Below are positions 3,193-24,544 of a stretch of 30,243 nucleotides of DNA, in pieces. Position numbers and translations under genes: made by a program. Under the pieces are notes generated by a model. The model made no database searches, was not told the DNA's origin, and was given only the letters and a program-made list of their open reading frames with translations. Numbering within the stretch: the stretch's first letter is position 1; each line of letters begins with the position of its first letter. The stretch covers positions 1 through 30,243 of the IMG/VR virus record IMGVR_UViG_3300042090_000448, one strand, 5' to 3'. The DNA is from a virus.

Positions 3193-5796
3193 CTAATCCC
3201 ATGCGGCCTGCCTCTGGGCCGCCGCCTGATCTTGTGTGTAATGATTCTCTGCAATCTTACCCATTTTGCTAGTATTTTTTGCTTGCCTTTTTGGAGCCCC
3301 AGTCGGAGGCATCGCGGGCTTGGGTGCATAGATCGCCTGAATGGATTGAATTGCCTGTGGCGTCATCGTCGAATCAAGAGGTTGACCCAAGAACATACTC
3401 AATCCTTGTCTCACTCGATAACTCGGTTTTTCCTCATCCACCCCGGCTTGCATGATTTTTTGAGTAAGTTTCTTAGACATGTGATCATGAATCTCGGGCC
3501 AAAGAGATTTGAAATGATTCAGAGTTTCTGGCGTAAGGGTTCCTGCTTTAATGTGATTGAGAATGCCAAGGGGCTGAATCGCAAGATCAAGAGCTTTTTG
3601 ATAAGAGCGATGTTGATCCGTGTTTTCTCGAGAAGTGTCAAATGCAAGCTTGGGTAATGGTTTTTGAGGCCGGACGGAGTTCAAATAATTAGCCACCCTG
3701 ACCTTGGCACCAGCAAGCATTGCCGCATGATCTGGTAGAGCCTTCCCCAGCTTTTCAAAGCCCCTTAAAGCGGGCTGGACAGGCTCATCGGGCATAGCAA
3801 CAGGCTCTGGCTTTATGACTTCACCGCCGTGCGCGAACTTTTGAGATGGAGTGGGCGACGGAGCAGGTTGTTGAATCTGAGACTGAAATTGCCGGTCCAA
3901 CTCCCCATTCTCTAAATACTTATCAATTTTTTCTTTATCTTTATCGGATGTGATTGCATCAACGGCCCGCGCTCCGCCGGCCTTAAATAAAGAATTAATC
4001 CCATCAGAAAGCTTTCCAGCACCCTTCGCAGCAGATTCTGCATAACCCAGGACTTTTCCAGCCGAATGGGGTGCATTACCACTCAGCGCTTTGACTACAA
4101 ACGGCAGAACTGATTGCTTAACTTTTCTTCCAATGGCTTCCTCAAAGTGAGGAACAATAGCGCCAGTTAAAGCACCCGCAACGCCGCCACCAATTGCGCC
4201 AGGAATCCCATATTGCTTATACCCCTCTTGCTCACCAATAGCGGCTCCAGCAACTCCATGTGCCGCGCGGTTAGCAAATCCAGGAACACCAAATTGGTAA
4301 AGAGAATCCGCAAATTTAGCGCCAGCACTCTTTTCACCATAAGAGTCTTTGATGAGTTCGGTTGGCGGCGTGAAAAGGGGCGATTCAAGTCCATATTCAG
4401 AGTGAAGCGCATTGATTTCTTGCTGCATGTTTTCTGAACCGTTCACCCAGCGCTGAACAAAGCGAGCCTTGTCGGATCCGGCAAGCTTCCCCTTTTGTTG
4501 CTGGTTCAGATAAGTCTCAACAGTACCGGATTTGATAACCTTATTTCCCTCATCCTCAAGAGGAGTTGGAGAAAAGCTTTCAGAAAACTTTCTTAAAAAG
4601 TCCTTATTAGCTGGCATGAAATTAGAGACAGATGCATTCAGCCTCTTTTGAAAGTCTCCGGCGTCATTCCATACGTCTGAATCTTCTAGAGTAGTGCCAA
4701 GATCATGATAAAGAGCGCCGGCCCTCTTATTAGTTAAGTCTCTTTCTCGTTTTTGAAACTCAGCTAACTCATCTCCAACGCGCCTTTTCATCGAATCCGT
4801 AGCTTGAAACACATCAGCCGGAGTCGGCGGCCTTCCAATCGGTTGCAGAGTAATTGGATCGATTTTTGGAGTTACTGAATCTTTCCACTCTCTTACAATG
4901 TCCTGAAGTCCTGAGTTGTTTTGCAAGTCACCGGATAATGATGAAAGTTTTTTAGCCACATCATTGACGTGCTGATCTACCTGGTCTTGAGTTACATCTT
5001 GAGTAAGTCTTGCAATGTTTGAGGCCTTACCTTGGCCAGAGCCATACATGTAATCTCTTGCCGCATCGTTTGATGCCAAAAGATTGCCCATTTGCTCGGC
5101 GGTAGACTCAGTTACATTAGGGTTTTCATTCCAAAATTTAAGGCGACTTCCGGCGTCACTCAAAAACTGTGACAGCTTAGTGCCAATATTTGATTCACCA
5201 ATTGCCCTTAGAGCCGGAGTAGCAACCCGCTCCATTGCGGCACCGCCAACGCCCCCCAACAGAGAAACAGCCCCATCAGCCATCAAAGAAGACGGAGCAG
5301 CCTCATGTGGATCTAGCCCCTCTTGCATTGCTCGAGACGCCTTGTCTACGCCAAGAAAAAGACTTGTTTCAAGAGTGTTCTTAATTACAGAGGATGCGAA
5401 ATTGCCTACTTCTGCGGCCTTTGCCGCCGCTCCCGCTGCGGTTCCAGCAGCTGAAATTCCAGCACCAATTGGACCTGCGACTAATCCAGCAAGTTCTCCG
5501 GCTCCAGCGACGAAAGGGTGCGCTTCCGCTCTTTGAGCTTCGGCCTTTTGTTCCTCAGCCGCAGCTGTATCTGGTAAATATTTTTCCTCAAGGCCAGCGA
5601 GTGGCCCCAAAACACCACGCCTCACGGCCTCAACGCCAGTTTTCCAGGTATCAAGTAAACCAGAACCCTGGTCTGGAGCCGAAGGTAGATCTTCAGGCGG
5701 AACCTCTTGCCCTGAAAGATTAGGCTGAGCGGGTTGACTGGCGGACTCTGGAAGATCCTCGGGAGGAACCTCCTGACCGCTTACTGGTAATACCAC
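3193..5796 (-). CDS. Large internal virion / DNA-ejection protein candidate, 867 aa
   Basis: No enzymatic motif was recognised. The N-terminus carries an 11-residue exact repeat, SGQEVPPEDLP, at residues 6-16 and 28-38. Two Gly/Ala-rich hydrophobic stretches follow, around 95-130 (AGLVAGPIGAGISAAG) and around 515-555 (GAIGGGVAGALTGAIVPH). These glycine-zipper-like segments suggest membrane insertion, as in ejection proteins that build a channel through the cell envelope. The rest is mostly charged helix. A 'FAHGGEV' phrase near residue 657 matches the AxGG motif shared with other genes here. It is the third and largest of three consecutive genes after the nozzle, like the inner-core sets of T7 (gp14-16) or P22 (gp7, gp20, gp16). 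The assignment rests on position and composition. It overlaps the upstream gene by 16 bases. Confidence 0.6.
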   Translation of the reverse strand: MVLPVSGQEVPPEDLPESASQPAQPNLSGQEVPPEDLPSAPDQGSGLLDTWKTGVEAVRRGVLGPLAGLEEKYLPDTAAAEEQKAEAQRAEAHPFVAGAGELAGLVAGPIGAGISAAGTAAGAAAKAAEVGNFASSVIKNTLETSLFLGVDKASRAMQEGLDPHEAAPSSLMADGAVSLLGGVGGAAMERVATPALRAIGESNIGTKLSQFLSDAGSRLKFWNENPNVTESTAEQMGNLLASNDAARDYMYGSGQGKASNIARLTQDVTQDQVDQHVNDVAKKLSSLSGDLQNNSGLQDIVREWKDSVTPKIDPITLQPIGRPPTPADVFQATDSMKRRVGDELAEFQKRERDLTNKRAGALYHDLGTTLEDSDVWNDAGDFQKRLNASVSNFMPANKDFLRKFSESFSPTPLEDEGNKVIKSGTVETYLNQQQKGKLAGSDKARFVQRWVNGSENMQQEINALHSEYGLESPLFTPPTELIKDSYGEKSAGAKFADSLYQFGVPGFANRAAHGVAGAAIGEQEGYKQYGIPGAIGGGVAGALTGAIVPHFEEAIGRKVKQSVLPFVVKALSGNAPHSAGKVLGYAESAAKGAGKLSDGINSLFKAGGARAVDAITSDKDKEKIDKYLENGELDRQFQSQIQQPAPSPTPSQKFAHGGEVIKPEPVAMPDEPVQPALRGFEKLGKALPDHAAMLAGAKVRVANYLNSVRPQKPLPKLAFDTSRENTDQHRSYQKALDLAIQPLGILNHIKAGTLTPETLNHFKSLWPEIHDHMSKKLTQKIMQAGVDEEKPSYRVRQGLSMFLGQPLDSTMTPQAIQSIQAIYAPKPAMPPTGAPKRQAKNTSKMGKIAENHYTQDQAAAQRQAAWD

Positions 5797-15916: not shown

Positions 15917-17224
15917 TTAAGCACTGAGCTGAACATTCATGTTGTAACCAGGAGCCGAGCAAATCACATTGCCGTAATAAGCAATGCGGATTTCCAGGGC
16001 GTCAGCGTTACCAACACGCAGACCTTCAAGGCCTTCCATACCGTAAGTAAGGATATGGGGAGCCTTGCCAAGCGTGCGAAGCTTGAACGTATCAACAGTC
16101 AATACGTTTGCAGATTGAGCCGGTTGCGAGCGATCAGCCAGCACCGGAATCTTGCCATAAGCGCTGTGGAAATGAATTGCTTCAAATGCCACCGGCACTT
16201 CGTCATGCTCAAGTTGAACGTATTGGACTTTAGCGCCCAATTCATTGATCAGCGTAGCGTAGCTAACAAAGTCAATGATGATCAAGTCAGGAGCAGCACC
16301 TTCTCGGTTTGCCAATGCAAGAGCAGAAGTCAATCCTTCAGCGATAGACTGAGCTTGTGCATTGTAACGGAGACCGCCCAAACGGGTCACGTCTGCAGAG
16401 CGGTTAACTCCCCAGAAGTTATCGTTCGACGGCGGATCCACAACCGGAATCCATGCAGCTAAGCCAGACAAGCCCAATAGGCCTGCAATGGTCGAAGCAC
16501 CACCGATACCGATATCACCAAGCACTTGGAGATAGTCGCCAGCACCCCAAGAGGTTTGCGGTGCACCTTGAACAACGGTTCCAGAGATGACGCCAGTTCC
16601 ACGGTTAACCGCAGTAATCTGGATCGCATCAATGGTACCAGGAGTGTTTTGAAGTGCAGCACCACCGTCGGTAGCCGAAGCTTGAAGAACCATTCCAACT
16701 TCGAACTGAACAACAGCCTGGCCGTTAGCCAAGGTGAAGGTCAGAGTCGGAGCAGAATAGGAAACGCCAGCAGAGCTAATGACACCGCGAGAAGCGGTAC
16801 CGCCCGAAAACAATTCAAACGCCATGTTGTTCGAAATGTTACGGAAACCATTATCAAGCGTACGGCTTGCTTCATCAACAAACGCGCCAGCATTTGTCTT
16901 GGTTTGCTCCATCAACAAGTTGGTGATGGTAACGAGTTGATAATCCTGAATCGCATAAACGAAATAGGACACAACGCTCGTTGCGGTTTGCTGATTTTGT
17001 GCGTTCGCAAATACGTGCGCACGGCCAGCAGGATTGGAATACTCGAGCGGCACAGGAATATACTTACCTGCGAAACCGTCCGGGGATTCGTTTTTCGGAA
17101 TCATCGCGAGCCAAGGGTTCTTGGCATACACGATGTTCTTCATGTAGTCTTTATCGTCCGTGTAAAGCTCTTTCAACGCAGCAATCTGGTTGGAAGAGTT
17201 TGCATAGACTGGAGAAACAGCCAT
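15917..17224 (-). CDS. Major capsid protein, 435 aa
   Basis: This is identified as the major head protein from its place directly after the scaffold and portal genes, its size, its good ribosome site (AAAGGAAG before ATG) and the strong terminator behind it. Motifs fit podovirus capsids: an N-terminal helix 'IAALKELYTDDKDYMKNIVYAKNPWLAMIPK', then 'GKYIPVPLEYSNPAGRAHVFANAQ' and 'TITNLLMEQTKTNAGAFVDEASRTLDNGFRNISNNMAFELF' (long spine helix). An internal beta insertion covers about 140-215, with a C-terminal 'APGYNMNVQLSA'. The HK97 fold is expected for all tailed-phage capsids but is not directly visible. Assembly would need the scaffold encoded next to it. Confidence 0.88.
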   Translation of the reverse strand: MAVSPVYANSSNQIAALKELYTDDKDYMKNIVYAKNPWLAMIPKNESPDGFAGKYIPVPLEYSNPAGRAHVFANAQNQQTATSVVSYFVYAIQDYQLVTITNLLMEQTKTNAGAFVDEASRTLDNGFRNISNNMAFELFSGGTASRGVISSAGVSYSAPTLTFTLANGQAVVQFEVGMVLQASATDGGAALQNTPGTIDAIQITAVNRGTGVISGTVVQGAPQTSWGAGDYLQVLGDIGIGGASTIAGLLGLSGLAAWIPVVDPPSNDNFWGVNRSADVTRLGGLRYNAQAQSIAEGLTSALALANREGAAPDLIIIDFVSYATLINELGAKVQYVQLEHDEVPVAFEAIHFHSAYGKIPVLADRSQPAQSANVLTVDTFKLRTLGKAPHILTYGMEGLEGLRVGNADALEIRIAYYGNVICSAPGYNMNVQLSA

Positions 17225-18291: not shown

Positions 18292-20220
18292 TTAAGCAGC
18301 TGGTTGACCTACTGCGTTTGGCACTAAAGGCGATTGAGGTAGAGGCTGAGGATTGGCTTGCGGAACTGGAGCAGGAGCGGGGGGCATTGCGGCTTGCATT
18401 AATGCCTGCACTTGCTTGAAGTAATCACGCAGCATGTCGGCTTTAGTCTCTTCAAGCTTACAAGCTAAATACAGATTCAGGTATTTGACAACGATTTGTT
18501 GAGCCAAGTTCAAATCTAAGAACACATCGGGCTCAATGTATTTTCCGTCCTCAACGATTGAATCAAGTTGTTGATAGATCCGCTCTTCAGACGCGTTGTC
18601 CAAGCGTTCATTCTGTTCAAGATCCGGAAAGCGCATCAAACGTGCACCTTCTTTAATTGTAAGAATACCCGCCTGGACAAGCTCAGTAACCGTCTGAATA
18701 CGGCCGGCAGGAGTACGTGGAAGCGCGCTTTCGGTAAAGCATTGGATAACGAAAGGATCCTTCAGAAACTTCATTGCAGGCAGATCAATCTCTTTAGTTC
18801 CGTCTTTATTAGGATAAACCGTCTGATACTTACCTTCGCGCTCTGCGATATCTTTAGCGGTTTCGGCGATCAGATAAGCCCCGTCTACGAAGATATTGTC
18901 GTATTTCTTCGAGATAGCGGCGAAGCGGTCTGTGGCAATATCGTCGTAAGAGCGAATGGCAGCGCCCGAGTTAAGGCCTTCTGGCTTTTGAGAGGTCGCC
19001 TGCATTGCAGACACGCCAGTTTGTTGAAAGCCATACTGAATCAGCTTATCGCGCTCAGCATAAAGCTCTGGGGCATTACATGGCGCAACCTCATAAGAGG
19101 GCTTAACCCCAGAATAGGTAATGATCACGCCGATTTCATTGTTCTGATGAGCCTTAACGACCTTAGAGTTCTGTTCAATAAAGATACGGGGAACGCCAAC
19201 AAGTGTGATAGCTCGAGCAATCGTATAAAGAATACGGTTCAAACCCATCTGGGTGCCAAAGAGCTGTGTTGCCAAGCCTTGGCCAAAGAACCCAAGGAAT
19301 GGGTCCGAGTAGTTCATGAATACAAATGGGAACTTGGGCTTATTCCACTCCTCGTCGTAAATTATTCCGCTTTGGAGAGCGAGTGTGTGGCGTCCAGGAA
19401 CATATCCAGGCGCTTCGGGATCGGGCCCAGATGGAAGCTTCCATCCTTCAACGACCATGACTTGGTCCGATGTAGTCCTTCCACTATCAGGAGACTGATC
19501 AGGAACGGAGTTAGGAGCGGCAGCAATAATCAGTTGAGCAGCTTTATCGCTATTAGCAATGAGCTTATCACGATCCATAAGCTTAACTTGGATAAGGCTT
19601 TGGGGCTCACCATTAATCGCGTCATTTTCATCCACGTATAGATCAGTAATCATGACTCGGTCAACAGCAACCTTATTGTCGTGACCCTCATAGACCTTAA
19701 GACAGCCCGTGCCCATTACAAGGCAATCCCTAAGCATCTGGACGGCCTTATCGTAATACTTGGTCTGATAGAACTCGCCCATGATGAATTGGTTGAGTCT
19801 TTGGGCAAGGTGACGTTGCTTGTAATCTCCGCCGTCAGTTAAGAACTTGGGCTCAGGACGATTCTGAGAAAGACGAGAAACAAGAGTGTCTGTGCAAGCT
19901 TGAATAAGATTAAAGGTAGGCCGATCATCTGGAAGGGTTTTAGTCCTATCCATCTTGCTGACATTAGAACCAGCATAAGAATAAACAGAAAGTCCGCAAT
20001 ACATCCGAATGTCAACAGCGCGCTGACGAATACGATAAGTTTGGTTGGTTTTTAAATAGGCAGCAGTCCCGCAAAGTTCTTGAGCAAGCTTAATCTCATC
20101 GTCAGCCTTCCACCACTCAGCTAAAATCGAAGCCCCGTCTAACTCAGAGTTAGACTTAGTTTTCATGATCTTTCGCTGAACAGCGTTTTCTTTAGGCTTA
20201 TATGGCTTGCTGATCTTCAT
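18292..20220 (-). CDS. Portal protein, 642 aa
   Basis: Size and gene order (terminase, portal, scaffold, capsid) fit a podovirus portal. Recognisable stretches include 'VSRLSQNRPEPKFLTDGGDYKQRHLAQRLNQF' (about residues 110-142), 'YYDKAVQMLRDCLVMGTGCLKVYEG' and 'GLNRILYTIARAITLVGVPRIFIEQNSK'. Another is 'TSQKPEGLNSGAAIRSYDDIATDRFA', matching the conserved wing/stem-clip style of P22/T7-like portals. The C-terminus is Pro/Gln/Ala-rich. Twelve copies would form the vertex ring, bind the terminase during packaging, then the adaptor. The start overlaps the 84-aa gene stop by ATGA. Confidence 0.9.
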   Translation of the reverse strand: MKISKPYKPKENAVQRKIMKTKSNSELDGASILAEWWKADDEIKLAQELCGTAAYLKTNQTYRIRQRAVDIRMYCGLSVYSYAGSNVSKMDRTKTLPDDRPTFNLIQACTDTLVSRLSQNRPEPKFLTDGGDYKQRHLAQRLNQFIMGEFYQTKYYDKAVQMLRDCLVMGTGCLKVYEGHDNKVAVDRVMITDLYVDENDAINGEPQSLIQVKLMDRDKLIANSDKAAQLIIAAAPNSVPDQSPDSGRTTSDQVMVVEGWKLPSGPDPEAPGYVPGRHTLALQSGIIYDEEWNKPKFPFVFMNYSDPFLGFFGQGLATQLFGTQMGLNRILYTIARAITLVGVPRIFIEQNSKVVKAHQNNEIGVIITYSGVKPSYEVAPCNAPELYAERDKLIQYGFQQTGVSAMQATSQKPEGLNSGAAIRSYDDIATDRFAAISKKYDNIFVDGAYLIAETAKDIAEREGKYQTVYPNKDGTKEIDLPAMKFLKDPFVIQCFTESALPRTPAGRIQTVTELVQAGILTIKEGARLMRFPDLEQNERLDNASEERIYQQLDSIVEDGKYIEPDVFLDLNLAQQIVVKYLNLYLACKLEETKADMLRDYFKQVQALMQAAMPPAPAPVPQANPQPLPQSPLVPNAVGQPAA

Positions 20221-21388: not shown

Positions 21389-21754
21389 TTACCCCAGGGA
21401 AACTACGGCCGAAACCGCGTTTAAAACGTTATCTTCTGCAGCGGCTGAGCTAAGCGCTACCGTGAATGTATCTTGAGCCGCAGCACTAATCGGAACGTAA
21501 AACCCATCCGATCCTGCGGTGCTTGTGAAGATCGTGGTTCCATTTTGTTTAATCGTTGCGACCACAGCCGAAGGATAACTGAGATAGTTCGGATCAGTAG
21601 GATCGGTTTGCGACAATCTTGGAAGCTTAATCTTGCCTTTCAAAACACAGTTAATAGCCAAAGGCATGACGATCGTCAGAGTCTCAAGGCCTGAGATGGC
21701 AAAGTTCTGACTGTAAACATTCGCACCATTCACTGGATAAGTTGGAATGCTCAT
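21389..21754 (-). CDS. Small structural protein, paralogue of upstream gene, 121 aa
   Basis: A compact beta-rich protein: 'QNFAISGLETLTIVMPLAINC', 'AVVATIKQNGTTIFTSTAGSDGFYVP' and an ending 'AQDTFTVALSSAAAEDNVLNAVSAVVSLG'. The order, spacing and C-terminal pattern match the 255-aa protein encoded immediately upstream, without the glycine-rich insert of that protein. I infer a tandem duplication. The role may be a capsid decoration or head-fibre subunit because the genes lie between terminase and portal. The start is in an ATGA overlap with the 255-aa gene. Confidence 0.6.
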   Translation of the reverse strand: MSIPTYPVNGANVYSQNFAISGLETLTIVMPLAINCVLKGKIKLPRLSQTDPTDPNYLSYPSAVVATIKQNGTTIFTSTAGSDGFYVPISAAAQDTFTVALSSAAAEDNVLNAVSAVVSLG

Positions 21755-22518
21755 TGTTCACCCACCTCAATGCTTACGTTAGCTTTGATTACGTTCAGCG
21801 CATTATCTGCTGCGAGCGAACTCGAAAATACGATCGTAATTGAGTCGTTAGCGTTACAAAGAAGATTTGTATAAAACTGTGCGGTCTCCATTCGGCCTGC
21901 AATCGTCGGCATCGTGTAAACAGGAGTTCCATTTTGATTCACAACGATAGATAACGTCGATAGTATTCCAGCAAACGATGTTGGAGTGTTTGTGTAGGCG
22001 GGGGGCTGATTATACCCTGAGTTTGATGCTCCGAATCCTTGGCCAGTCGATCCATCTCCGAGACCACCGCCGCCTTGAGAAAACTCCGCAAGAGTTCCTC
22101 CACCAGCGCCTGCTCCGTAACCACTTCCGTTTCCCGACGCGTTATCATTAACGGCACCCGATGCTCCACCTCCAGAACCACCACCATCAAAACCACCAAA
22201 CGCACCACTCGGAACAGTGTCGCTGAATCCTAATCCAAGCGCACCATTACCCAATCCTTGTTGAGCGCCAGTCGTTTGATAACTCGGCAGATAAGCAGGA
22301 GATGTTCCAGTCACGCCAAAGCCTAGATCAGCACCTGAACCAGCTCCAGCCCCTTCTGATGTTTGGTGAGGAAAGCTCACTTGGCAGCGAACCTGAAACG
22401 GAATGTTGGATGTAGCAATTCCATTCGGTGGAATCGTTGCCGGAACAGTATAAGTCAAAGTCCCAAGCCCTGTTTGAACGTAGTTAGTCGCTAATTGTAG
22501 CGTTCCATTTGTAGCCAT
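21751..22518 (-). CDS. Structural protein with glycine-rich insert, 255 aa
   Basis: The N-terminal strand region (LATNYVQTGLGTLTYTVPA) and C-terminal region (LSIVVNQNGTPVYTMPTIAG ... NDSITIVFSSSLAADNALNVIKANVSIEVGE) align by eye with the 121-aa neighbour. Between them, residues about 55-175 form a Gly/Ser/Asn-rich, low-complexity segment (GGGSGGGASG, GYGAGAGGGT, QGGGGLGDG, TGQGFGASNSG). This could be a surface-exposed flexible or polyglycine-helix domain. I infer a displayed head or vertex protein with a glycine-rich loop, for example for weak surface adhesion. Start is TAATG-coupled to the 81-aa gene. Confidence 0.6.
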   Translation of the reverse strand: MATNGTLQLATNYVQTGLGTLTYTVPATIPPNGIATSNIPFQVRCQVSFPHQTSEGAGAGSGADLGFGVTGTSPAYLPSYQTTGAQQGLGNGALGLGFSDTVPSGAFGGFDGGGSGGGASGAVNDNASGNGSGYGAGAGGGTLAEFSQGGGGLGDGSTGQGFGASNSGYNQPPAYTNTPTSFAGILSTLSIVVNQNGTPVYTMPTIAGRMETAQFYTNLLCNANDSITIVFSSSLAADNALNVIKANVSIEVGEQ

Positions 22519-22763
22519 TAAATATGCTCACCTTCTTCATGTGGTTCAGAATCCATGAGTTCGAATGCAGACCTAAAGATAGATGCCGCACCACTGTAAT
22601 CTTTTGCATTTAAAGCAGAGTGAAGCTCCTGCATTGCACCTTCGAGAGAATCAACGACATCATCGTCTTTCTCATCTTCTTCATCGGGCTTCCGCTCGAC
22701 TTTATCCAGCTCTGGCTTCAAAGCCATGCCGCCTTCTTTTTTATCTTTTAGGAATGGAAGCAT
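22518..22763 (-). CDS. Acidic small phage protein, 81 aa
   Basis: Ribosome site AGGTGATCA precedes ATG. After 'LPFLKDKKEGGMALKPE' comes a very acidic stretch (KPDEEDEKDDDVVDSLEG) and an amphipathic helix 'AMQELHSALNAKDYSGAASIFRSAFELMDSEPHEEGEH'. This last segment matches a short conserved phage motif (L..A...KD......A...AFE..DS.PHEEG.H) often found close to portal/terminase genes, from memory. Function unknown. It lies directly after the tRNA gene and is probably translated from the same transcript. Confidence 0.6.
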   Translation of the reverse strand: MLPFLKDKKEGGMALKPELDKVERKPDEEDEKDDDVVDSLEGAMQELHSALNAKDYSGAASIFRSAFELMDSEPHEEGEHI

Positions 22764-22806: not shown

Positions 22807-22880
22807 TGGCTGGCGAGGTAGTAATCGAAACTACTTCTTCCGGTTAACAGCCGGACGCAGGACCTTCCTGCTACTCGCCA
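22807..22880 (-). tRNA. tRNA-Asn (GTT anticodon), CCA encoded
   Basis: The minus strand folds into a full cloverleaf of 74 bases including CCA. The 7-bp acceptor stem is TGGCGAG/CTCGCCA. Bases 8-9 are TA. The D arm is GCAG/CTGC with GG in the loop. The anticodon stem TCCGG/CCGGA closes the loop CTGTTAA, giving anticodon GTT after the invariant T33. A short variable loop (AGAA) follows, and the T arm GTAGT/ACTAC closes the loop TTCGATT (fits TTCRANY). The discriminator base is G, as in bacterial tRNA-Asn, followed directly by genomic CCA. It sits in the 120-base gap between the 67-aa and 81-aa genes and must be processed from the operon transcript. Confidence 0.95.
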
Positions 22881-22883
22881 ACT

Positions 22884-23087
22884 TTACTGCTTAAACTTTC
22901 TTTGCATCTTAGCCCAGAATGCCTTGGTCTGAATCGTGGGCTTACCATTCTTTAATACCCAACCCAAGTCAGGATCCCAAACATTTACTGAATCTAAGTC
23001 ATAAGGCTTAGGTGCTTCGGCCTCATGATCGGTAGAGACTCTCAAGGACAGATTCTTACGTCTAGCTAAAATCCCTTTAGTTCCCAT
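22884..23087 (-). CDS. Small hypothetical protein after terL, 67 aa
   Basis: The ATG at 23087 overlaps the TAA of the large terminase gene (TAATG); a TTG two codons upstream is a weaker option. The protein is basic at both ends (ILARRKNLSLRV; KAFWAKMQRKFKQ). The centre reads 'EAPKPYDLDSVNVWDPDLGWVLKNGKPTIQTKAFW', which may be a small beta hairpin. No family is recognised. It ends four bases before the tRNA gene. A packaging accessory is possible from context only. Confidence 0.55.
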   Translation of the reverse strand: MGTKGILARRKNLSLRVSTDHEAEAPKPYDLDSVNVWDPDLGWVLKNGKPTIQTKAFWAKMQRKFKQ

Positions 23088-24544
23088 TACCAACCTATGG
23101 GTTCATCCTGAAATCCAGGCATCTCAGGCCAACCGCCTTGTTCCTGCTCTTGTTGCTTCTTAAAGTGTTCAATCGCCTGATCAAAATGATTCTCGTTCAC
23201 TTTCTTATACCAACCCGGAGATCCTACAGCGTGCTTGATCACAATAGGATCGCTGATCGTTGGCCTGCTCATCAAAGCATAGCGCGTTTCATCATATGCG
23301 TCATCTCCTGATAATGGATCACCTTCCGTGGCATCAACCTTAAGAACATCCTCAACATGATCAGGATCATGAATCATCCGAGACAGCGTATCGAACGTGA
23401 TCGGACACGTATCGAAGATGAAGAACCTAGGCTTACCCGAAGCCTTACCTCTCCAAGCTAAGTAATCCCTAAGCTGAGCTGCGCCTTGAATCCGGTCTAT
23501 GACCGCTGGGACAAGATTAATGCCATGCGTTCTAAATTGCTCTGCCACTGTTGGAGGTTGTTTGTCATCTCTGAGTGTGCTCTTTTGAGTCCAACAATCT
23601 CTGCCAGCAACAATCGGATAGAGCTGTGCTGTGTCGCTGAAAGCGTTAAGTTTTTGCGCGAAGACATCAACTCGCACTCCTGCTTCGATAAGTTCTCGAT
23701 ACTTGTAAGTGTTTCCATCTTCATCCGTTGCGTACCATCCAAAAGCTGCTGGATGATTGAATCCATAGTCATAGGCTCCGAAACGGTTCCAGTGGTTTGG
23801 GATGGGGAAGGATCTGATGAAATGGACTTCTTTCGTGATCTCTTGGAAGAATTGCCCTGCGAAGATGTTCCAGTCTCCATATCTATATGCCTTTCTAAGT
23901 GCTTCGTTTGGTTCAGATTCTAAGCGGGTGACATAAGCCGGATCAGCCGCCATAAGCGCTGTGTTATCGTCCACCAGAGCTTGAATAAATGTATAATCGT
24001 TGGGGTTTTCTCTCTCATTGAAGCGTCTTTCAATGAATAACCGCTTGAGCCATCCGTGGCCCACACCACCCGGATTGCCTGTAAGGATTGCCCTGGCCAA
24101 AATGCCGGTTCGGGATGACCGATTGGAACCAAGCAATCGTCTAAACATAGCTTCTGGCCATTGACCAGCCTCATCAATTGCCAAGTCATGAAACTCTCGG
24201 CCTTGATAAAGATCAACGTCCGTTTCATTATTACAATGACAGAACTGAAGAGTTGAACCATTTGGAAGTGTTAACAGCTTTTTCGCTTCATTCCAATATT
24301 CTCTGAGGGCTGGGAAAGCCTGAAAGAGTGGTCGAATGTGATTTCCCTCGAGCTCAGGATAAGTGCGCCTAAATATGGCCCCAGTACTTCCAGCGTAGCG
24401 GAAGCGCCGCAGGAGCATGATAAGCTGCAAACCTTTCGATTTTCCTCCACCTTTGGCTCCACCGTAAAAAGTAATGGGCGTTTCTTCGATCGCTTTAAGG
24501 AACGCCTTTTGTTTCGGCTGGAGCGCGATTCGGAACTCAATCAT
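23087..24544 (-). CDS. terL: Terminase large subunit (packaging ATPase-nuclease), 485 aa
   Basis: Packages phage DNA through the portal. Walker A is GGAKGGGKS at residues 28-36, Walker B is LAIDE at 121-125 with the catalytic Glu at 125, and the coupling motif LTGNPGG lies near 154-160. The nuclease domain shows 'YGDWNIFAGQFF' (222-233), 'GAYDYGFNHPAAF' with catalytic Asp 259, 'AGRDCW', and a late acidic motif 'SGDDAYDETRYALM' near 430. Length is standard for the family. The start codon directly follows the stop of the small-subunit candidate, and portal lies a few genes downstream. Confidence 0.96.
   Translation of the reverse strand: MIEFRIALQPKQKAFLKAIEETPITFYGGAKGGGKSKGLQLIMLLRRFRYAGSTGAIFRRTYPELEGNHIRPLFQAFPALREYWNEAKKLLTLPNGSTLQFCHCNNETDVDLYQGREFHDLAIDEAGQWPEAMFRRLLGSNRSSRTGILARAILTGNPGGVGHGWLKRLFIERRFNERENPNDYTFIQALVDDNTALMAADPAYVTRLESEPNEALRKAYRYGDWNIFAGQFFQEITKEVHFIRSFPIPNHWNRFGAYDYGFNHPAAFGWYATDEDGNTYKYRELIEAGVRVDVFAQKLNAFSDTAQLYPIVAGRDCWTQKSTLRDDKQPPTVAEQFRTHGINLVPAVIDRIQGAAQLRDYLAWRGKASGKPRFFIFDTCPITFDTLSRMIHDPDHVEDVLKVDATEGDPLSGDDAYDETRYALMSRPTISDPIVIKHAVGSPGWYKKVNENHFDQAIEHFKKQQEQEQGGWPEMPGFQDEPIGW

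Follow-up and report, generated by a model that had tools for sequence, protein, structure and literature searches.

Why would a phage keep a single tRNA-Asn gene between the genes for its large terminase subunit and its portal? The question was addressed in the window, which is the whole 30,243-nt stretch of DNA analysed here and represents a partial record (a virus contig); the 6,900 bases that were compared with a longer record, G001 (36,333 bases), were identical. The window virus is a short-tailed-type phage, and the genes from 330 to 27642 are all located on the minus strand, in the same direction as the tRNA, which bears out an earlier claim of co-direction with the structural genes. 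The features that concern the locus are as follows.

23087 to 24544, minus strand: terL, large terminase subunit (phrog_979, 6.9e-43; Terminase_6N), two genes upstream of the tRNA
22884 to 23093, minus strand: 69-aa ORF, function not assigned, between terL and the tRNA and overlapping the end of terL
22807 to 22880, minus strand: tRNA-Asn(GTT), complete cloverleaf with encoded CCA and Asn-type U1-A72 and G73
22518 to 22763, minus strand: 81-aa ORF (g225), function not assigned, directly downstream of the tRNA and conserved in the group
21751 to 22518, minus strand: 255-aa ORF (g217), without a family match
18292 to 20220, minus strand: portal (phrog_156, 4.8e-8; P22_portal, 5.9e-5, under gathering)
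15917 to 17224, minus strand: probable major capsid protein, from gene order and conservation, without a family match

The tRNA therefore lies between terL and portal, as an earlier note on this DNA had stated; its immediate neighbours, however, are two small ORFs, and several ORFs without assigned function separate the 81-aa ORF from the portal gene.

The only tRNA that ARAGORN identified in the window was tRNA-Asn(gtt), at the position claimed for it and on the minus strand. The Rfam tRNA model (RF00005, cut-off of 29 bits) matched positions 22810-22880 of the same strand with 54.1 bits (E = 3.5e-9), and the cloverleaf was the minimum-free-energy fold of the RNA (-30.6 kcal/mol, z = -3.7), with none of 200 shuffled sequences being as stable. 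The sequence, TGGCGAG-TA-GCAGGAAGGTCCTGC-G-TCCGG-CTGTTAA-CCGGA-AGAA-GTAGT-TTCGATT-ACTAC-CTCGCCA-G-CCA, contained every element that had been listed for it from inspection: T33, the GTT anticodon, the TTCGATT T loop, a discriminator G and an encoded CCA. In the RNA, the GUU anticodon and U33 are both present in the loop CTGTTAA, and U1-A72 and G73 are as in E. coli tRNA-Asn. These results confirmed that the window carries a real tRNA-Asn. The variable loop has 4 nt. The D arm was unusual, with six possible pairs (GCAGGA/UCCUGC) around an AGG loop, and had G14 and C21, whereas A14 and A21 are present in nearly all relatives. The A14/A21 core contacts, which are usual but not obligatory for bacterial-type tRNA-Asn, are not made by the window copy, and a D arm of this kind could lower the function of this tRNA.

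To assess selection, 26 divergent tRNA-Asn copies, including that of the window, were aligned. The proportion of paired cells was 98.9% in the acceptor stem, 97.7% in the anticodon stem and 100% in the T stem, compared to means of 61%, 47% and 66%, respectively, when partners were shuffled among these related sequences, which is a lenient test. Up to six pair types were found per stem position, showing that the stems covary. U1-A72 and G73 were present in all 26 copies, and the anticodon loop was CTGTTAA in 24 and CTGTTAC in two. Covariation of the stems together with fixed U1-A72, G73 and GTT loop points, on this comparison, to selection for a working tRNA-Asn. The 74 bases of the window tRNA were also unchanged in the related contig L003, in which terL is 89% and the 69-aa ORF 94% identical at the DNA level; this identity is only suggestive, because the adjoining 43-base spacer behind the tRNA was likewise unchanged.

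One possibility is extra dosage: the phage would boost tRNA-Asn simply to meet a high asparagine demand of its structural proteins. The tRNA is co-directional with the late genes, and Asn codons make up 6.1% of those downstream of the tRNA (447/7343; 268 AAT and 179 AAC) compared to 4.0% upstream, so that the late proteins are mildly Asn-rich, as the earlier note had proposed. However, Gly, Ser, Thr and Gln were also raised downstream of the tRNA, yet the group mostly carries an Asn tRNA; furthermore, the orthologues of the major capsid, portal, nozzle and scaffold proteins were no richer in Asn in contigs that carry tRNA-Asn than in those that do not (p = 0.13-0.97). As carriers and non-carriers did not differ in these four proteins, Asn richness was rejected as the driver of tRNA presence, and extra dosage is considered a rather doubtful explanation. 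Classical codon compensation also fits poorly, given that bacteria use a single anticodon, GUU, for the two Asn codons. A late-transcribed tRNA-Asn is located at the left end of the Rhodococcus Cluster CA actinobacteriophages, for which codon compensation was judged unlikely by the authors (PMC13313380); those phages are siphoviruses, carry two or three tRNAs close to that end and are unrelated to the window group.

The distribution of the gene was determined using the probable major capsid protein as a marker for finding related contigs. This protein had many relatives in viral contigs and none among phage isolates, indicating an uncultivated group. A scan of genome contigs with the single capsid sequence gave no match; with an alignment as the query, one 36% match was obtained in a MAG of the Rhodobacteraceae, which is too distant to name a host.

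A total of 76 related viral contigs was searched with the Rfam tRNA model; these were not dereplicated except for obvious duplicates (L044 and L045 are one phage), and all counts are therefore of records and not of independent events. A tRNA-like match was found in 34 contigs, 30 of which carried tRNA-Asn; the anticodon was GTT according to ARAGORN in 29 of these and ATT, read from the sequence, in the remaining one (L006). Other isotypes were rare (Met in four records, Gln in one and Gly in one, plus two tRNA-like matches). Approximately half of the 76 contigs, many of them at least 35 kb in length, had no tRNA, which indicates that it is dispensable. As counted from gene maps, tRNA-Asn flanked terL (within ~1.3 kb) in 23 of the 30 carriers, and did so with two quite different terL types. 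The location had previously been described as unusual for a phage tRNA; this holds as a general impression, but within the group the terL flank is the normal site. The 69-aa ORF was retained in L003-L005 and L013, and was absent where the tRNA abuts terL.

The terL-proximal tRNA-Asn follows terL in some relatives, precedes it in others and may also lie on the opposite strand. This variation bears on the possibility of operon punctuation, whereby excision of the tRNA would split the late mRNA and separate terL from the downstream genes. In the window the tRNA does lie inside a co-directional gene run, with no convincing promoter or terminator near it; however, because its position and strand vary among relatives, no fixed mRNA cut is conserved, and such a role is very unlikely.

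Other features were observed at the tRNA loci of relatives. In five of them the upstream ORF, either terL or a small gene before the tRNA, has as its stop codon the TAG formed by U8-A9-G10 of the tRNA, and so crosses the 5' acceptor strand:

L031, 2342-2351: TAG-stop site
L050, 2465-2474: TAG-stop site
L052, 4149-4158: TAG-stop site
L058, 3453-3462: TAG-stop site
L012, 7440-7449: TAG-stop site

At three loci the encoded RNA is tRNA-like, with well-formed acceptor, D and T arms but a greatly expanded anticodon region:

L121 (record of L008), 1501-1617: tRNA-like RNA with expanded anticodon region
L118 (record of L070), ~1501-1600: tRNA-like RNA with expanded anticodon region
L036, 11366-11450: tRNA-like RNA with expanded anticodon region, called Pyl(cta) by ARAGORN

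In L009 a second, degenerate tRNA (1665-1746) directly follows the tRNA-Asn, and C5-cytosine DNA methylase genes are located near the tRNA in L039 (1618-2430), L096 (464-1231), L112 and L123.

Comparison of relatives that share the order terL, 69-aa ORF, tRNA and g225 revealed that the tRNA-Asn sequence is clearly different in L004, L005 and L013, while the flanking genes align. The tRNA-Asn identity was thereby shown to persist through wholesale sequence replacement at the slot. In two further relatives, L007 (terL 82% identical to that of the window) and L006 (87%), the tRNA gene was split:

L007, 6848-6869: remaining 5' part of an older tRNA-Asn, matching the intact L005 tRNA at 21/22 positions
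L007, 6876-6949: intact, different tRNA-Asn(GTT)
L007, 6951-7508: HNH_3 ORF, starting 2 bases after the intact tRNA-Asn
L007, 7512-7531: 3' remnant of the older tRNA
L006, 2062-2091: 5' half of an older tRNA
L006, 2099-2521: HNH_3 ORF
L006, 2478-2549: second tRNA with Asn-type ends, ATT anticodon and loop CTATTAA
L006, 2557-2594: 3' half of the older tRNA, acceptor strands complementary at 7/7 positions

Both ORFs encode an HNH catalytic domain (HNH_3, 4.7e-12 in L006 and 3e-8 in L007), and the insertion site is intact in relatives, as is evident from the 7/7 acceptor pairing of the L006 halves and the 21/22 match of the L007 remnant to L005. In each of these contigs, an HNH gene with a second tRNA-Asn has been inserted into an older tRNA-Asn gene. 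A group I intron was considered and rejected, as no intron family was detected up to E = 0.1 in L006 or L007. Searches with 3'-half and with 5'-half patterns found no split tRNA beyond these two. HNH_3 was present in six of 50 records of the group, two of which were L006 and L007; the window record gave no HNH_3 match and its tRNA is without an adjacent HNH gene. The suggestion that the tRNA marks a recombination site was partly borne out at this slot in two relatives, by insertion of an endonuclease gene and a tRNA inside a tRNA.

A scan with the L007 HNH protein recovered only two full-length relatives, L137 and L138, both in unrelated phages, and in both the HNH ORF adjoins tRNA-Asn(GTT):

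L138, 2918-2993: tRNA-Asn(GTT), with the HNH ORF from 3001
L137, 3582-3660: tRNA-Asn(GTT), with the HNH ORF ending at 3543

Among the other 77 HNH_3 loci, which have mainly the HNH domain in common, a tRNA was located within 300 nt in three, and the nearest was never Asn. The agreement among the three full-length members is striking, though these are few. The L006 HNH protein had no informative relatives, and in phage isolates only partial, distant HNH matches were found.

Two other loci were recorded during these comparisons. Positions 15-84 of L138 gave a sub-threshold match to YrlA, a Y RNA-like family (37.7 bits compared to a cut-off of 69), near another tRNA-like RNA. In L037 (6105-6930) a GIY-YIG/NUMOD3 endonuclease ORF is followed by an 89-nt RNA, called Asn(GTT) by ARAGORN, that has a long variable arm and lacks a TTCGA loop.

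From the split genes we infer that HNH cassettes may home into tRNA-Asn genes, with the carried tRNA rescuing the function that is destroyed. In its strongest form this would mean that self-rescuing homing cassettes both target and carry the terL-flanking tRNA-Asn: competing phages would have their tRNA-Asn gene cut by the HNH enzyme, and the cassette would bring a different, functional tRNA-Asn as a replacement. Selection would then keep one tRNA identity as the sequence was repeatedly overwritten, and the odd D-arm tRNA of the window would be a product of this turnover. This strong form is advanced only tentatively. The linkage of HNH genes and tRNA-Asn in L006, L007, L137 and L138 could also be read as that of a selfish passenger, a tRNA that is useless to the phage and persists only by riding homing endonuclease cassettes. 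However, most carriers, including the window, have no adjacent HNH gene and yet keep the identity determinants and stem pairing; a purely selfish tRNA is thus quite unlikely.

The nearest precedent for turnover of the slot is SegB of T4 and T6, a GIY-YIG homing endonuclease encoded in the region of the tRNA genes (PMC2988022, PMC13096335) that associates with tRNAs without isotype preference (PMC13096335). In L006 and L007, as with SegB, which promotes tRNA inheritance or amplification, a homing-type endonuclease gene is located next to phage tRNA genes. In contrast to SegB, which is intergenic in a tRNA cluster, the enzyme here is of the HNH_3 type and is associated with a lone tRNA-Asn beside terL, the insertion lies inside the tRNA gene and brings another tRNA for that amino acid, and the window itself has no endonuclease. 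Homing endonuclease genes are common near terminase genes, whose neighbourhoods are favoured sites for them (PMC10448857), in agreement with the location of the genes found here; no description of tRNA-carrying cassettes inside a tRNA gene was found there. In the open-licence literature, within its limited coverage, no endonuclease insertion inside a phage tRNA gene was found, nor was an HNH gene inserted in a tRNA gene with a spare tRNA for the same amino acid. The window tRNA is a known sort of gene; the insertion of an HNH gene with a spare tRNA is apparently an undescribed variant, as far as that literature extends.

The earlier note had also offered an integration site as an alternative. 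The tRNA might be an integration-related copy, either an att site or a tRNA that replaces a host gene broken by integration, as in tRNA-dependent lysogeny (PMC10865867), where, likewise, a gene of the same isotype is broken and a phage tRNA takes its place. One relative, L022, has a junction of this kind:

L113 (record of L022), 619-1500: weak tyrosine-integrase ORF, ending exactly at the start of the tRNA
L113 (record of L022), 1501-1574: tRNA-Asn(GTT)

In that phage, tRNA-dependent lysogeny could be the source of the junction. For the window the proposal was not supported: a PF00589 search detected no integrase in this partial record or in the 36-kb G001, integrases were present in only three of 50 records, and the terL slot was far from any. 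Furthermore, in tRNA-dependent lysogeny an integrase breaks the host gene, whereas here, with no integrase seen, an HNH insertion breaks the older gene of the phage itself. An integration-related origin is very improbable.

Retention of a single isotype suggests, as a hypothesis, a pressure specific to tRNA-Asn, such as a tRNA-cleaving defence. The phage tRNA might replace a host tRNA-Asn cut by a defence nuclease, and precedents for this exist: phage tRNA-Tyr offsets retron-Eco7 and phage tRNA-Lys offsets PrrC (PMC11555353), and tRNA-Tyr is amplified in response to Septu (PMC13096335). Phage tRNAs that face tRNA-cleaving defences may also carry escape changes in the anticodon loop (PMC10264068). 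The present group resembles these systems (PMC10264068, PMC11555353) in that a single tRNA identity is retained under selection. In those systems, however, the tRNA is Tyr or Lys and the nuclease is known, whereas here it is Asn and any nuclease is hypothetical; nearly all copies have the ordinary bacterial anticodon loop, with no escape changes of the kind reported in PMC10264068. Replacement of a cleaved host tRNA is possible, with the balance somewhat against it.

The reading that best accommodates these results, with an estimated probability of about 0.6, is that the gene provides a late-expressed supply of tRNA-Asn, or insurance for it, from a slot that is turned over by homing cassettes. 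The tRNA would be made as part of a long late transcript, from which host tRNA-processing enzymes would be expected to cut it, and a host enzyme would presumably charge it. It would then add to, or replace, the host tRNA-Asn pool during synthesis of the structural proteins, and the gain from a phage copy may lie in quantity, or in its survival when the host pool is damaged. Homing of HNH cassettes into the gene, with rescue by the carried tRNA, would account for turnover of the slot. The most tentative part is why it is asparagine that is kept: since GUU reads both Asn codons, a host nuclease or some other shortage of tRNA-Asn may be responsible rather than codon preference.

The question of why phages retain certain tRNAs has long been open. 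In this group approximately 40% of contigs keep one tRNA identity, mostly in one slot, with a sequence that has been repeatedly replaced, so that function becomes separable from descent. Because one anticodon reads both Asn codons, a group with a single tRNA identity points away from codon choice and towards supply or protection of tRNA-Asn. The joint insertion of a tRNA and an HNH gene suggests that no intron is needed for a homing gene to invade an RNA gene, provided that it carries a spare copy along.
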